The position numbers and the translations under genes were made by a program. From Hysterangium stoloniferum (lineage: Eukaryota; Basidiomycota; Agaricomycetes; Hysterangiales; Hysterangiaceae), in assembly GCA_015178975.1 (NCBI GenBank), contig WHVD01000025.1, positions 248,001-312,000 of the forward strand: 64,000 bases of DNA. The letters are read 5' to 3'. This document shows, one piece after another, positions 7,089 to 59,840 of the stretch (position 1 is its first letter; the number at the start of each line of letters is the position of its first letter). The notes under the pieces were generated by a model. That model made no database searches. It saw only the letters and a list, made by a program, of their open reading frames with translations, and was not told where the DNA came from.

Positions 7089-10000
7089 TCAACGCTTGTC
7101 TATTTTTGAATCTAAAATCTGTGAGATTTCAAACTCGGGTTCTCCGTCAATGACGACAGGAGGAGGCGGAGATTGCACGTGATCCGGGATAGTGTTAGCA
7201 GTACAAGGTTCAAGCATAGAAACATGAAATACTGGGTGTACCGCATGCATGCTATCCGGAAGCCGTAGAGTCCAAGAGACTGAACCTACTTGTGCGATAA
7301 TTTCAAACAGACCTAAATATTTTTCAGCAAGCTTCTTTGATGGACGGGTAGTCCGGAAGAATTGAGCTTTGACATAAACACGGTCGCCAATCTTGAAGTT
7401 GGGTGGCGGGATCCGGTGTTTGTCCGCTGAATGTTGGTATTGCTCTTGCGCAGACAATATTGCAGTCCGGAGTTCCTCGTGGAGCTCGTGGAGGTCCGTG
7501 GTGAACTCTTGAGCACGAACAGAGGCGAGATTTCGTTCTGGATGTACTGTAATATTTGGATTATATCCTTTATTTGCAAAGAACGGGGAAACACCAGTAG
7601 TGGCCGAGGGTGCATTGTTGTAAGCAAACTCTGCAAGTGGTAACAAGGTTTTCCAATTGTCCTGTTGGTAGTTGCAATATACGCGGAGGTATTGTTCCAA
7701 AGTCTGGTTGACGCGTTCGGTTTGTCCGTCACCTTCCGGGTGATGTCCGGACGTGAAATGTAATGTCATGTCCAAGGATTTTCCGAGGGATCTAAAGAAG
7801 TGAGACACGAACTCTGATCCTCTATCGGAAGTCACATGGGACGGAACTCCGTGCTTGGAAAATACGTGGATAATGAAAAGTTCCGCTAACTGCACGGACG
7901 TAATTGTATCATAAGTAGGGATGAATATACCTTGTTTTGAGAATCTGTCAACAACGACTAGAATAGCAGAAAAGCCTTCGGAATCCGGTAGGTGTTCAAT
8001 GAAATCCATAGATATAGAATTCCACGGGTGTTCCGGTACCAGGAGTTGTTTCAAAAGGCCGTATGGTTTGTGTCGCTGGGATTTCGAGTGGGGACAAGTA
8101 GTGCAAGATTTACAATAGTGCTTAACAAATCCACGGAGTCTGGGCCAAGTATATTCTCTTCTTATTAATGATAGAGTTTTGTTGTACCCGAAATGTCCTG
8201 AGAGTGGATGATCATGTTTGTATTGAAGGATCCTGAGGCGGAGGCCGTCAGAGTCCGGTACATAGATCCTATCGTCAAGTCTAATGAAACGATGTTGATC
8301 AAGAGACCACCGAGGTTGATCGGGGTCCACGGGATTGTCCAGATGAGCTTTAGTAACTGGGTCTAGCGGAATTGCCGATAGAATATCTTGATGTAACTTC
8401 TTGATATCCATAATGATAATTCCACGGACAATGGGATTGACGAGGAAAGTTGTGCGGACCGATGCGGTAAGTTGTTGATTCGTGAAAATAGGTTTCAGGT
8501 TGTGCGGATTTACCGTTGCATAGTCGTTGCTCCCCTCTTTAGGATAGACGTCCCATCGTCTAGTTAAAGCGTCGGGTTTGCCGCCGAGACGGCCGGGTCG
8601 AAAGCGGATAATCATGTTGAAGGCGGAGAGATATTCAGACCAGCGGACCTGCCGGCGGGTCAAGAGTTTTGTGGTAGAAAAGTATTCCAGGTTTTTGTGA
8701 TCTGTTACAACGTCAATAGGAGCTCCTGAACCTTCCAAATAGTGTCGCCACGCTTTGAAAGCTGAAAAGATTGCCAGAAGTTCTTTATCATGAACGTCGT
8801 AGTTGAGCTCTGCTCCGGTAAAAGTCCGGGACAGAAAAGCCACGGGGTGAACTTCTCCGTCGGAGTCCTGGATAGAGAGAATGGCTCCAAGTGCATAGTC
8901 GGAGGCATCTGTTTCAACAATGAGCGGGAAGTCCGGTTTCCAATGCGACAGAATAGGAGCTGTAGAAAAAGAATTTTTTAAAAGATTGAAAGCTTTTTGA
9001 CACTTATCATTAAAGTTCCACGGAGTACCCTTACGTGTAAGATGGGTAAGGGGTACCGTGATGTCGGAATATCCACGGATAAAACGTCTGTAAAAATTGG
9101 CAAAGCCGAGGAAGGATTGTATATCTTTAACTTTTTGGGGTTCGGGCCAGTCTTTGATGACTTGCACTTTAGTTTCGTCCATGCGGAGTCCATCGGGTCC
9201 CATCATGAAACCTAGGTATTCCACGGAGTCCATGTCAAAAGTACATTTTTTACCATTTGCGAATAAACCATGTTGCCTGAGCCTCTGGAGAACTTCACGG
9301 ACTTGTTTGTCGTGTTCCGCAGGATTCTCGGAGTAGATAAGAATGTCATCCAAGTAAACAATGATGCATACATCGAGCATGTCGGAGAAAATGTCGTTGA
9401 TAAAATGCTGAAAAACAGACGGGGCATTAGTGAGTCCAAAAGGGATGACCAACCACTCGAAGGCCCCATAGCGGGTTCTAAAAGTGGTTTTCCATTCGTC
9501 GCCCGTGGCAATCCAGACCAAATGATAGGCGTGCTTGAGATCTATTTTGGTGTAAATCCGGGCATTCCGCGGAGCATCGAGCAGGTCAGATATAAGTGGG
9601 AGTGGATATTTGTCCTTTTTGGTGACAGCATTGAGTCCTCTAAAATCAACACATAGTCGAAGGGATCCATCCTTTTTTCTGACAAACAGAACAGGTGCTC
9701 CAAAAGGAGACTTTGAGGGTCGAATAAAACCTATGGACAAATGTTCATCCAGGAAATCACGGATTGCGGATAGTTCCGTGGAAGAAAGCGGGTAAATATG
9801 TCCTAGGGGTGGCTGGGCGCCATCTTCAAGATCGATTTTTAAGTTGTATTCTCTATGAGGTGGAAGCCGGTCAGCTTTTCGCTTGCTAAAAACATCCGCG
9901 AAGTCATGATATTTCTCCGGGACGCCTTCTAGGTCAGCGGCTTGCTCAGATTCAGATACCGGGGTTGAAAAACGTCCAGTTGCTTCATCAATTTTTAAGT

Positions 10001-10814
10001 TGATAGTGAACGCCTGGGACCCATCCATTTTTGAAGCCCTAATAAAAGCTGCAGCATTAATCAGAGAAATGGACGGAGGTGCCGTGGGTTCCGGGGAAGC
10101 TATAGGTGCCGTAGGGATCACAGGAGTCCTCGAGACTGCAGGTGCCGGGAAGGCCATGGGTGCCGTGGAGGCCGAGACAGGCGCAGTTTCCTCGGTCACC
10201 GCGGGAGTCCGGAATGTTATACTGTTAGCTATCCAGTCAATCAACAGATTGTAGCGGGTAAGCCAGTTATGTCCTAGGACCACCGAGCAACTTGAGTCTA
10301 ACTGGGTCACATAGAAAGTGACCAATTGAGATGTTCCACAAGGGAAATTGATGGGTAAATCACAAGCTTGGGTAACAACCGAATTACTTGTGCCATCGAA
10401 GAGGTGGAGGCTGATGGGATTTATCGAATAAGTTGACAAAGAATTTTTTTGCGTGAATTTTGTATCTAAAAAACAATGAGTCGAGCCGGAATCTATGAGA
10501 GCTGAAAAAACAAATTTCGGAATCATATTAGACATAAGTTTAACGAAAAATGAATCAGAATGTGAAAGAGTGGATGCGTTGAGGCGAGTGAACTCTTGAA
10601 TGCGCGGAGAGGCAACACAACCCCTAACCCGCGCGGAGTCCGCGGGGTTGCTTACTCTTTTTTCGAATTGGCAGCCGGTTTGTCCTTCGACGGGGTTTCC
10701 GTGGAGGCTTTGGCTGATTGACCCTTTGAAGAGTTTGCTTTTGCCAGCGGACATTCCGGGACTCGATAACTGGGTTTCCCACACAAGAGACAGAGGTTGT
10801 TGTCCATACGACAT
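7089..10814 (-). CDS. pol: Pol polyprotein: protease, reverse transcriptase, RNase H, integrase
   Basis: 1241 codons, no internal stop. In order: aspartic protease with ALIDSGSTHC (about residue 105); reverse transcriptase with VDFRGLNAV and catalytic YLDD; RNase H with ETDASDYALGAIL; integrase HHCC zinc finger (GHFGYNK ... CKSCTTC) and core with SMDF, TSDRGSEF and the Glu of GQTERVNQT; then a GPF/Y-like module reading KYLGLFEII. It ends inside a chromodomain at a premature TGA. It is probably made by -1 frameshifting from Gag, because the frame overlaps gag by 163 nt. The order PR-RT-RH-INT defines Ty3/gypsy. Confidence 0.95.
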   Translation of the reverse strand: MSYGQQPLSLVWETQLSSPGMSAGKSKLFKGSISQSLHGNPVEGQTGCQFEKRVSNPADSARVRGCVASPRIQEFTRLNASTLSHSDSFFVKLMSNMIPKFVFSALIDSGSTHCFLDTKFTQKNSLSTYSINPISLHLFDGTSNSVVTQACDLPINFPCGTSQLVTFYVTQLDSSCSVVLGHNWLTRYNLLIDWIANSITFRTPAVTEETAPVSASTAPMAFPAPAVSRTPVIPTAPIASPEPTAPPSISLINAAAFIRASKMDGSQAFTINLKIDEATGRFSTPVSESEQAADLEGVPEKYHDFADVFSKRKADRLPPHREYNLKIDLEDGAQPPLGHIYPLSSTELSAIRDFLDEHLSIGFIRPSKSPFGAPVLFVRKKDGSLRLCVDFRGLNAVTKKDKYPLPLISDLLDAPRNARIYTKIDLKHAYHLVWIATGDEWKTTFRTRYGAFEWLVIPFGLTNAPSVFQHFINDIFSDMLDVCIIVYLDDILIYSENPAEHDKQVREVLQRLRQHGLFANGKKCTFDMDSVEYLGFMMGPDGLRMDETKVQVIKDWPEPQKVKDIQSFLGFANFYRRFIRGYSDITVPLTHLTRKGTPWNFNDKCQKAFNLLKNSFSTAPILSHWKPDFPLIVETDASDYALGAILSIQDSDGEVHPVAFLSRTFTGAELNYDVHDKELLAIFSAFKAWRHYLEGSGAPIDVVTDHKNLEYFSTTKLLTRRQVRWSEYLSAFNMIIRFRPGRLGGKPDALTRRWDVYPKEGSNDYATVNPHNLKPIFTNQQLTASVRTTFLVNPIVRGIIIMDIKKLHQDILSAIPLDPVTKAHLDNPVDPDQPRWSLDQHRFIRLDDRIYVPDSDGLRLRILQYKHDHPLSGHFGYNKTLSLIRREYTWPRLRGFVKHYCKSCTTCPHSKSQRHKPYGLLKQLLVPEHPWNSISMDFIEHLPDSEGFSAILVVVDRFSKQGIFIPTYDTITSVQLAELFIIHVFSKHGVPSHVTSDRGSEFVSHFFRSLGKSLDMTLHFTSGHHPEGDGQTERVNQTLEQYLRVYCNYQQDNWKTLLPLAEFAYNNAPSATTGVSPFFANKGYNPNITVHPERNLASVRAQEFTTDLHELHEELRTAILSAQEQYQHSADKHRIPPPNFKIGDRVYVKAQFFRTTRPSKKLAEKYLGLFEIIAQVGSVSWTLRLPDSMHAVHPVFHVSMLEPCTANTIPDHVQSPPPPVVIDGEPEFEISQILDSKIDKR

Positions 10815-11950
10815 TGTCTTTCTTGTGGAGTCAATTTGCCATCGGGTCTGAGTTTGCCTGAGAGGTCGGGTTTTCCGGCTTGCTTGCCGGACTGTTGACC
10901 CTTGTTGTTGTCCTTATTGTCCTTATTGTTGTTGTTGTTGTTTGAAGACTTTTTATCGTTCTTCTTGTCGGATTGCGTGGAGTTCTGGTTGCTGGTTGAC
11001 GAATTGTTGTTATTGTTTTTGTCCTTGGACTTGTTTACTTTGTCTGTGGATGTCTCGTGGGCAACTTCCGTGCGACGTTCCCAATAACGTGCATCCGCGT
11101 TTTGAGCTTTGAGGCGCATATGGGACAGGGTTTTTGGCTTGCCATCTTTTCCTTTCGAGACTTCGTCTTTAAGGTGGGATGGCAGACTGGCATAGAATTG
11201 GTGGCAGGGAGCGGGATCACCCCACTGACAACGAGCTGCAAGATTATTGAATTGGACAATGTAGTCCGTGATGCGCTGCATGTCCTTCATATGAAGATTT
11301 GTGAGACTATTCTCGGTTTCTCCTGTCGGGTCATATGGGCCGAAGTTGGTTTCAAGCTCCTCAACAAATGCCTCCCAATTTTCAAGCCAGAGTGGCTCTT
11401 CCTCGGATATTCCGCTAAAAGCCAGTTCGAACCATTTCAACGTGGATCCCGACAAATATGACAGTGTGTAGTTGACTTTTCGGGAGTCCGTGGAGAATGC
11501 AGCGGCACGATCACGGAAGTTGAAGCAACATTGCATGAGGAAAGTAGAGAGTTTGTTTGGGTTGGAACCCGTGAAGGGTTCCGGAGCATTGACTTTTGAC
11601 CGTGGAGGTTCTTGTTCCTTTTTCTTTTGTTCTTCGAGCAGGTGCGTCATGAATTTATCTATGGTACCTGCTAAAAATTCAGAAGTAGGATCCCCTAAAT
11701 GCGGTCGTTGAACAGGCGGAGGATTTTCAGGAGGGATTTCGACACCTTTGCCCTTGTCGGGGGCCACAGAATTGTCCTCGCGCTCAGATTCGTCCAGGTC
11801 TTCCGGGACTTCTTCGATGCGGGCTTCGGCTTCTTCCATGGGTTCCGACTGGTTCGCAAGTGTCTGACTGGTATACAGAGTTAACGGGGAATGAAGAGTC
11901 GACGGTCCAGGTATTGATGACTGTGTGCGTGTACTTCTTCTTGGTGGCAT
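10652..11950 (-). CDS. gag: Gag capsid/nucleocapsid protein
   Basis: 432 codons, starting MPPRRSTRTQ 37 bases inside the 5' LTR border. A capsid-type region (about residues 110-260, NAPEPFTGSNPNKLSTFL, NFRDRAAAF, WENWEAF-like blocks) is followed by an Asn/Lys-rich linker and a zinc knuckle CLLCGKPSYRVPEC. A canonical knuckle has His where this one has Tyr (TAT for CAT, a C to T change), so RNA binding by this copy may be impaired. The stop TAA sits right after a run of six A. Confidence 0.9.
   Translation of the reverse strand: MPPRRSTRTQSSIPGPSTLHSPLTLYTSQTLANQSEPMEEAEARIEEVPEDLDESEREDNSVAPDKGKGVEIPPENPPPVQRPHLGDPTSEFLAGTIDKFMTHLLEEQKKKEQEPPRSKVNAPEPFTGSNPNKLSTFLMQCCFNFRDRAAAFSTDSRKVNYTLSYLSGSTLKWFELAFSGISEEEPLWLENWEAFVEELETNFGPYDPTGETENSLTNLHMKDMQRITDYIVQFNNLAARCQWGDPAPCHQFYASLPSHLKDEVSKGKDGKPKTLSHMRLKAQNADARYWERRTEVAHETSTDKVNKSKDKNNNNNSSTSNQNSTQSDKKNDKKSSNNNNNNKDNKDNNKGQQSGKQAGKPDLSGKLRPDGKLTPQERQCRMDNNLCLLCGKPSYRVPECPLAKANSSKGQSAKASTETPSKDKPAANSKKE
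10655..10666 (-). other. probable -1 frameshift site at the gag end
   Basis: On the minus strand the gag codons TCG AAA AAA GAG precede the TAA. A one-base backward slip on the A6 run (10658-10663) gives GAA AAA AGA, exactly the pol frame. The frames of the two ORFs differ by -1. Confidence 0.55.
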
Positions 11951-11986
11951 AATGAAAACAATCTGCGAGTATTAGTCAGAAAATAC

Positions 11987-31942: not shown

Positions 31943-32208
31943 AGGCATTTTGACTTTTAGCCAGTCCTATGTGGGCGAAGCCAGGCACGCCAATAGTGTA
32001 CTGCTTCTACGTAAACTCACGTGCATTGGGATTGCGATATATATATGACTCTGTTGGGTATTGAGAATTCAGGTTAGCATACCGCAAGGAGATCGAGATT
32101 ATCTGGGGAAAGTTGGCTACCTTTGCGAGCGGTTACCTGGGGTATATAAACATGGGATCATCTGCATTTACAAAGTACACATTCTTTGTTAAAAGTGTAG
32201 AAAATGAA

Positions 32209-32280
32209 TGGCCAGACTGGGGATTGAACCCAGGGCTTCTGCATATATAGCAGGGGTGTTAACCATTACACCACCTGACC
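32209..32280 (-). tRNA. tRNA-like gene in LTR 1, anticodon position reads TAT
   Basis: 72 nt fold as a cloverleaf. The acceptor stem GGTCAGG/TCTGGCC has 7 pairs (two G-T); D stem GTGT/ACAC; T arm CTGGG-TTCAATC-CCCAG is perfect; discriminator A. A box TGGTGTAATGG and B box GGTTCAATCCC are intact, so RNA polymerase III could start here. The anticodon loop is TATATAT: position 33 is A, not the near-universal U, and the first anticodon-stem pair is C-A. It may be a promoter-only or pseudo-tRNA. By position the anticodon would be TAT (Ile). Confidence 0.75.
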
Positions 32281-32491
32281 CTGGGAAGCACTGCTAGCAT
32301 TACTCAAACTAACACACTCCCTTAATGCTAGCACTCAACTATACTATAAGCAGATATAGGTCCTCTCTGGCTCTTTTGTCCAGACTTGTCCACTATACCA
32401 CACACAAATATAGCTGTTCACTCTACACACAGGAACCATGCCCTATAGCACACAGCGGGGCCCATAACCTGTTAAAAGTGTAGAAAATGAA

Positions 32492-32563
32492 TGGCCAGAC
32501 TGGGGATTGAACCCAGGGCTTCTGCATATATAGCAGGGGTGTTAACCATTACACCACCTGACC
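32492..32563 (-). tRNA. tRNA-like gene in LTR 2, identical to the first
   Basis: Same 72 nt as 32209-32280, placed at the same offset in the second LTR. Confidence 0.75.
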
Positions 32564-33059
32564 CTGGGAAGCACTGCTAGCATTACTCAAACTAACACAC
32601 TCCCTTAATGCTAGCACTCAACTATACTATAAGCAGATATAGGTCCTCTCTGGCTCTTTTGTCCAGACTTGTCCACTATACCACACACAAATATAGCTGT
32701 TCACTCTACACACAGGAACATTCTTTTGCAACGAGTTATACTCTCATCTACCTTGCAGAAAGTTGTTTGCTCTTTTTGAAAGCGTTAATTATTTAAACAG
32801 TGAACCAGTATGCAAACCATGCTATAGCTTTGGCTGCTGTATACAACCACACATGCACCAGACGTAACGAAGGACCGCTTCGTACACAAGTTTTCCTTCA
32901 ACTAAGGGGGTGTATATAAAATGCATATGCACGACACACGACAGCGTGTACATAAATGTATCTCCTCTTGTGGCCTGTCCTGGCAAGAATCAGTTGATAT
33001 ACAATGGAGTAGCTTGGACATCGGCTATGCTGAATTGTCCTGACTTTACAGCAAACGTT

Positions 33060-59326: not shown

Positions 59327-59840
59327 TGTTAGATTGTGTAATGCTAGCACTGTTTCCCAGGGTCAGGTGGTGTAATTGATAACTGTCACAACCGTCACAA
59401 GTCACAACATTGTCACAAACAATCAAAGGTAATATTCAACAACTCTTTGACTCATCAAATTCGACTCGATAAACCCGAACATTATTCAACAACATCGAAT
59501 CTCTTTCGACATGTCCCATTTCAACATCACGAATGATTTCATTATTAGTTCATAATATAGTCATAACAATACGAAGAAAAGCATAAAAGGGCTATGAAAG
59601 GAATGAGGGAAGTCAGTTGAAATATCTGTAAATTAGTGATACTAGTAATCTAACTTGTTGTAACTTCTTTGACAAATACTTCCATGAGTTCTCGTGACTG
59701 GTAATAGCCTCTTACTTCATCGACAGGGCGAATATATACTTCATTGAACGAGGCTTTCGAGTTCAATCAGTAGAATATTATTCAACTTTATTGAAGAATA
59801 ATTGATTTGTGACAATAACACCCTTGCTAAAGTGAGCCTG
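59327..59840 (+). pseudogene. fragment of the tRNA-carrying TRIM, split by LTR B
   Basis: AATGCTAGCAC, CCCAGGGTCAGGTGGTGTAAT and, after the insertion, AACACCCTTGCTA align with the tRNA-like gene and its 5' flank at 32280. The T arm is missing or unrecognisable, so no tRNA can be made. Confidence 0.65.
59384..59814 (+). repeat. solo LTR B, complete
   Basis: 431 bp from TGTCACAACCG to TTTGTGACA, perfect TSD ATAAC (59379-59383, 59815-59819). The empty-site relative of the interrupted copy at 20530. Confidence 0.9.

Follow-up and report, generated by a model that had tools for sequence, protein, structure and literature searches.

The window, i.e., the whole stretch of 64,000 nucleotides analysed here (C168:248001-312000), contains two copies of TTCTT, at 32182-32186 and 32721-32725, which bracket two direct repeats and a spacer. 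The repeats (32187-32438, 252 bp, and 32470-32720, 251 bp) are identical at 250/250 aligned bases, with one of them carrying a single extra terminal base, and the spacer between them (32439-32469) measures 31 bp. The tRNA-like sequences of the repeats sit on the minus strand, and on this account the sense of the element is the minus strand. Read in that direction, the locus comprises a canonical 5' LTR of 128 bp (32470-32597), a canonical internal region of 155 bp (32315-32469) and a canonical 3' LTR of 128 bp (32187-32314, TGTTAGTTTGAG...CTTTTAACA) that is identical to the 5' LTR. Upstream of the 5' LTR, an extra 122 bp (32598-32719) correspond to interior positions 34-155 and form an abnormal 5' end, such that the copy runs interior 34-155, LTR, full interior, LTR. 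The TSD on the 3' side is TTCTT (AAGAA in the element sense; 32182-32186), and that on the 5' side is either TTCTT (32721-32725) or, if it is of 6 bp, ATTCTT (32720-32725). Directly after the LTR end ...CTTTTAACA comes the PBS GGTTATGGGCCCCG (32456-32469), which we take to be the half-tRNA-iMet form. At the other end of the interior, a polypurine tract read from the sequence, AAGGGAGTG (32315-32323), adjoins the 3' LTR, the junction in the family being this tract followed by TGTTAG. A cryptic polypurine tract, TATAGGGCATG, lies at 32437-32447, and the extended 5' end begins at the interior base next to it. The window copy has no ORF of 150 aa or longer.

Two further features of the window involve LTR elements. 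On the plus strand, positions 59327-59383 hold the first 57 bp (89% identical) of a relic family LTR, the broken second copy noticed in the original prediction. The relic is interrupted by a 431-bp insertion, TGTCACAA...TTGTGACA (59384-59814, plus strand; TSD ATAAC), which is probably a solo LTR. Separately, the long open frames of a minus-strand gypsy element at 7089-11971 encode Gag, protease, RT, RNase H and integrase domains; the element also carries a Tf2-1-like domain.

The tRNA-like sequences of the 3' LTR (32280-32209) and of the 5' LTR (32563-32492) are each called by ARAGORN as a minus-strand tRNA-Ile(TAT) of 72 nt, and both match the Rfam family RF00005 at 46.8 bits (cut-off 29, E 7.4e-07). 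The RNA is predicted to adopt a cloverleaf-like fold (-26.7 kcal/mol, z -2.18, with 7/200 shuffles folding equally well), in which the anticodon loop reads UAUAUAU and has no U33; a cloverleaf in each repeat and a loop without U33 had both been anticipated from the letters alone. The further suggestion that this RNA might prime replication fares worse, as the PBS, presumably of half-tRNA-iMet form, is a different sequence from the tRNA-like one, and self-priming is thus not supported. A box B (GGTTC) is present in the tRNA-like part, while box A, TGGTGTAATGG, deviates from the TRGCY form quoted in PMC10886601, and two T4 runs stand right after the tRNA-like sequence. The LTR tRNA-like sequence is a putative Pol III-type promoter. 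Comparison of 102 distinct LTR copies, however, gave 0.0173 and 0.0241 substitutions per site and copy for boxes A and B, respectively, versus 0.0170 for the rest of the tRNA-like part, i.e., no excess conservation that would speak for selection on the boxes. LTR position 113 (element sense), a site not covered by all of these copies, accumulated 43 substitutions among them; since it lies within the first T4 run behind the tRNA-like part, Pol III termination may vary between subfamilies.

A tRNA scan of the genome, with the best 63 of 5384 candidates scored, returned at least 62 matches. These include many sequences of 94-95 nt, most of which ARAGORN labels tRNA-Stop (L066, L067, L069, L070, L074 and others); several lie on C112 (0.98-1.22 Mb) and C68, and some form tandem repeats of ~0.4-1.2 kb. 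We take them to be intron-bearing tRNA-Lys-like genes that do not belong to the window family.

The assembly (111.1 Mb, 554 contigs) was searched with the 534-bp window unit, yielding at least 46 matches from the best 40 of 511 candidates, which were scored; 5 matches cover the full query and 35 extend over the first 411-425 query bases only. This confinement identifies the ordinary family element as a 128-bp LTR, a 155-bp interior and a 128-bp LTR, 411 bp in total. Removal of duplicates by their flanks reduced 60 fetched loci to 43 clusters that contain one or more complete LTRs; in 35 of these clusters, two or three LTRs are complete. Perfect 5-bp TSDs lie at the ends of the 128-bp LTRs in 32/35 of the latter; the exceptions are L018 with 4 bp, L028, which lies on a 15-kb contig and has none, and the window copy, whose TSD lies outside the extension. 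Four of the 35 (L002-L005) are three-LTR units, all four with perfect 5-bp TSDs. The outer LTRs are identical at 128/128 positions in 26/35 copies; at a fungal substitution rate of 1.05e-9, as given in the available text of PMC5689174, a single difference would correspond to ~3.7 million years, so that most of these copies are young. LTR 3' ends of the family number 309 in the assembly (up to 3 mismatches), as against 0 for a reversed control pattern. The family is hence a dispersed non-autonomous LTR element that encodes nothing, and segmental tandem duplication, raised earlier as a possible explanation of the locus, is ruled out by the dispersal and the TSDs. The genome search and TSD comparison proposed in the original prediction thus came out in its favor as regards dispersal and flanking duplications. 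Its anatomy of TSD, LTR, 31 bp, LTR and TSD holds for the locus, where repeats, spacer and TTCTT are real, but 251-252-bp LTRs around a 31-bp interior do not describe the family: the 252-bp repeat is a 128-bp LTR plus interior sequence, and is seen in this form only in the window copy. Some loci depart from the ordinary structure in other ways. Two ordinary copies are diverged (C219, C399:273871), the family LTR at C544:520311 is truncated, and C527 retains an interior and a 3' LTR with no LTR upstream. At C520:241321-241781, three family interiors are spaced exactly 220 bp apart rather than 283, as a tandem array of shortened units.

The original prediction knew of no fungal element with a tRNA in its LTR, a view superseded by the Helenus TRIMs. 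Described in 2024, these occur in fungi, animals and plants, and their hosts include Agaricomycetes and rusts (PMC10886601). These elements measure 311-1263 bp, and the fungal families have 5-bp TSDs and a PBS that mostly corresponds to the tRNA-iMet anticodon loop (PMC10886601). The window family is likewise a short non-coding two-LTR element, 411 bp in its ordinary form, whose LTRs each contain a tRNA-like sequence, with a 5-bp TSD and a polypurine tract before the 3' LTR. The PBS GGTTATGGGCCCCG after the 5' LTR would, by its form and by the description of fungal Helenus (PMC10886601), be of half-tRNA-iMet type. Judged by the structural features described in the text, the family is a fungal Helenus (TRIMp3). 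The element is accordingly of a kind already known, and the window copy, which differs from Helenus in its extended repeat, is a structural variant of it.

The abnormal 5' end appears to be peculiar to the window copy. A pattern for the interior sequence at which the extension starts has 90 sites genome-wide, and a pattern that also spans the adjoining upstream interior has 89, of which 86 are shared with the 90. Three further interior starts (C408, C399:284107, C475) were read and have a PBS upstream; they are ordinary copies that have diverged or carry small deletions. This leaves the window copy as the only one of the 90 with neither the adjoining upstream interior nor a PBS upstream. Its extension starts 4 nt after the GGG of the cryptic tract (after GGGCATG), just as the LTR starts 4 nt after the GGG of the true tract (after GGGAGTG), and from this parallel we infer second-strand priming from the cryptic tract. 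Specifically, second-strand synthesis would have begun at the interior tract TATAGGGCATG instead of the true tract AAGGGAGTG; both ends of the product would then consist of extension plus LTR, and the interior would shrink to its PBS side of 31-33 bp. LTR-like ends of interior plus LTR around an interior of 31-33 bp, as expected from such a start, match the window copy. This origin is suggested by a single copy, and the GGG+4 correspondence was noticed post hoc. At its very 5' end the copy reads TGTTCC where the interior has TGGTTCC, which implies either a 6-bp TSD (ATTCTT) or the addition of one base. The window copy is a possible case of an LTR enlarged by a misplaced polypurine primer.

Other accounts of the locus have to be weighed against this origin from the cryptic tract. 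The copy might descend from an ordinary three-LTR array (LTR-interior-LTR-interior-LTR) from which the 5' LTR and a further 33 bp of interior were deleted after insertion; four three-LTR copies are indeed known in this genome (L002-L005), and Cassandra arrays with incomplete end units are described in the available text of PMC7215508. A deletion reaching into the flank, however, would take away the TSD, yet TTCTT or ATTCTT stands exactly at both ends, an arrangement expected by chance in about 1 in 1000 cases or less, and we regard this history as unlikely. A TRIM with LTRs of 251-252 bp and an interior of 31 bp, as originally proposed, is the literal description of the locus, but the other 34 two- or three-LTR copies have LTRs of ~128 bp, and the TSDs at that boundary are perfect in 32; among the 90 interior starts only that of the window lacks adjoining upstream family sequence; little credence can be given to it. 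We find it just as hard to believe that the tRNA-like sequence represents a tRNA gene, functional or of recent capture, and that the LTR around it is incidental. Although both ARAGORN and Rfam score it as a tRNA, it has no U33 in its anticodon loop, its anticodon calls vary from one family copy to another (Ile-TAT, Thr-TGT or none), and it sits within an LTR having TSDs outside.

The PBS combined with the LTR end, AACAGGTTATGGGCCC, occurs at 631 sites in the genome, while a control pattern occurs at none. A search for copia RTs, in which the best 150 of 1270 candidates were scored, gave 33 distinct matches on the contigs of the first 100 of the 631 sites; in 15 of these listed matches the exact PBS lies 2.9-5.2 kb upstream in the same orientation, and 18 have none in that range. 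Several copia copies in the genome therefore share the PBS. The family probably relies on copia-superfamily elements with the same PBS for its copying in trans. Two patterns for a host tRNA-iMet gene detected none in the assembly, the second giving 3 weak unrelated matches and 1 control match. At C4:59982-60632 and C35:1081409-1081742, PBS copies lie 317-318 bp apart on one strand and perhaps belong to a small tandem LTR element.

Comparison of two pattern lists, one of 80 LTR-PBS junctions and the other of 82 PBS-interior starts, with 70 loci in common, revealed composites between the family and foreign sequence. Of the 10 junctions without a listed interior, C195 and C399:459944 have a family interior at lower identity and 8 run into other sequence. 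Conversely, 12 interior starts have no listed family LTR end; they include 3 diverged copies (C219, C399:273871, C475), the truncated LTR on C544 and the LTR-less start on C527, and the remaining 7 follow foreign sequence whose last bases are AACA. In all, 9 loci (C24, C58, C124, C135, C140, C141, C290, C533, C540) show a joint between the family and foreign sequence that lies exactly at the PBS, and at least 4 of the 9 are joined to copia. A copia Gag (PF14223) follows the family LTR and PBS at C135, C140 and C533, with a copia RT match containing one TGA further downstream at C140. Upstream of the C124 joint lies what looks by eye like the 3' coding end and LTR of a copia, and this LTR start is found again 5 kb upstream. 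At C140, the coding end that precedes the family interior resembles a copia RNase H by eye but has no match in Pfam. Of the other five loci (C24, C58, C141, C290 and C540), C290 and C540 have the same partner. The stretch identical to the foreign partner measures 4-8 nt at 7 joints on the LTR side and 12-15 nt at 7 joints on the PBS side.

In addition to these nine loci, a second tRNA-bearing LTR family, with a 250-bp LTR and a 67-bp interior (L094, L098, L105, L106; C2, C35), is joined to a copia-type element at C35 and probably at C2, two loci met via other lists and not by a random draw. Its LTR is labeled by ARAGORN as Tyr-ATA or left without a determined anticodon. At C35, the second-family LTR on the 5' side is followed by an RT match with an open frame of 1385 aa and then by a different 3' LTR of 350 bp. 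C2 has the second-family LTR at both outer ends, and its inner LTR belongs to the 350-bp type, with 85.5% identity over 256 bp; the 4.25-kb spacing of its two PBS copies suggests a copia between these copies, with no copia RT match on C2 among the best 150 of 1270 candidates.

The outer ends were read in five of the 11 composite loci, and in each of the five they carry identical 5-bp TSDs (C140 AGGTA, C124 ACAAT, C135 GCCAT, C2 TTTTT, C35 AGAGA), two of which, TTTTT and AGAGA, are low in complexity. A single outer TSD pair, the feature of template-switching complexes, is thus seen in 5/5 composites read and in 4/4 same-family three-LTR copies, and such matching TSDs point to integration of the composites as units. 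In the simplest route to them, Helenus RNAs and the RNAs of several copia families would be reverse-transcribed in the same particle, with second-strand DNA transferring between the co-packaged RNAs at the shared PBS. At C140, the copia coding end meets TTTAACA and the PBS directly with no copia LTR, so that a further template switch would be needed. Alternatively, the partners might have integrated separately and become joined only afterwards in the chromosome, through recombination or nested insertion. Triticeae complexes arose mostly by chromosomal recombination (20 vs 2; PMC1950507), and nested insertions are present in the genome studied here (C141/L060; window 59384). We nonetheless consider a chromosomal origin improbable: the outer TSDs match in every composite read, the joints fall at the PBS between partners sharing little beyond the PBS itself, and at C140 both outer LTRs, identical at 124/129 positions, are of one subfamily.

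The TSD-flanked composites are hence the best evidence in this analysis that Helenus may be copied in copia particles. It seems quite probable that the window element is a Helenus-family copy, copied in trans by copia elements sharing its PBS, that the composites result from co-packaging and that the abnormal window end derives from the cryptic tract. A bolder reading, which we hold to have about an even chance, is that the same particles take in RNAs of two or more Helenus families together with those of several copia families, with transfer of second-strand DNA at the PBS, sometimes twice running, yielding composites as a regular by-product. By this reading, and with the same even chance, copia would have come to lie behind a tRNA-bearing LTR (C35, C140 and, by spacing, C2), and Helenus between a foreign LTR end and a copia gag (C135, C533). 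If true, the shared PBS would be a recombination port besides a primer site, and composites would directly name the helper elements. Copia had been proposed as the partner of fungal Helenus from PBS and interior similarity (PMC10886601), and the identity of Helenus helpers has so far rested on such similarities; composites with a single TSD pair would be physical records of co-packaging. Should they hold up, helpers could be identified family by family, one TRIM could be seen to use several, and a route would be suggested by which copia might acquire Pol III-type LTRs. The terms "chimer" and "template switch" are absent from the text of the Helenus paper in a term search (PMC10886601), and composites of Helenus and copia are named in no title or abstract opening of a survey that covered few subscription journals.

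Among known systems, Cassandra is comparable in having a small RNA gene with an internal Pol III promoter in its LTR and in forming three-LTR and longer arrays, but that gene is a 5S gene in plants, according to the available text of PMC7215508, as opposed to a tRNA in the window family; no 5S rRNA-derived sequence was found in the window, where the Rfam search gives tRNA only. For Cassandra, there is no indication of a helper, according to PMC10886601, which also reports Helenus tandem arrays in one fish family of elements. Closer to the composites are the Triticeae complexes of Sabot and Schulman (2007), three-LTR units with 5-bp TSDs ascribed to strand transfer between co-packaged RNAs by the same TSD argument as used here (PMC1950507). 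VejuL and BARE2 likewise appear to have formed by jumps between different packaged RNAs (PMC1950507), so that co-packaging chimeras as such are not new. The Triticeae complexes, however, combine similar elements (Angela-like, Squiq, Opie), and their switch lies at R (PMC1950507), whereas in the genome of the window unlike families, a TRIM and copia, are joined, and the joint is the PBS.
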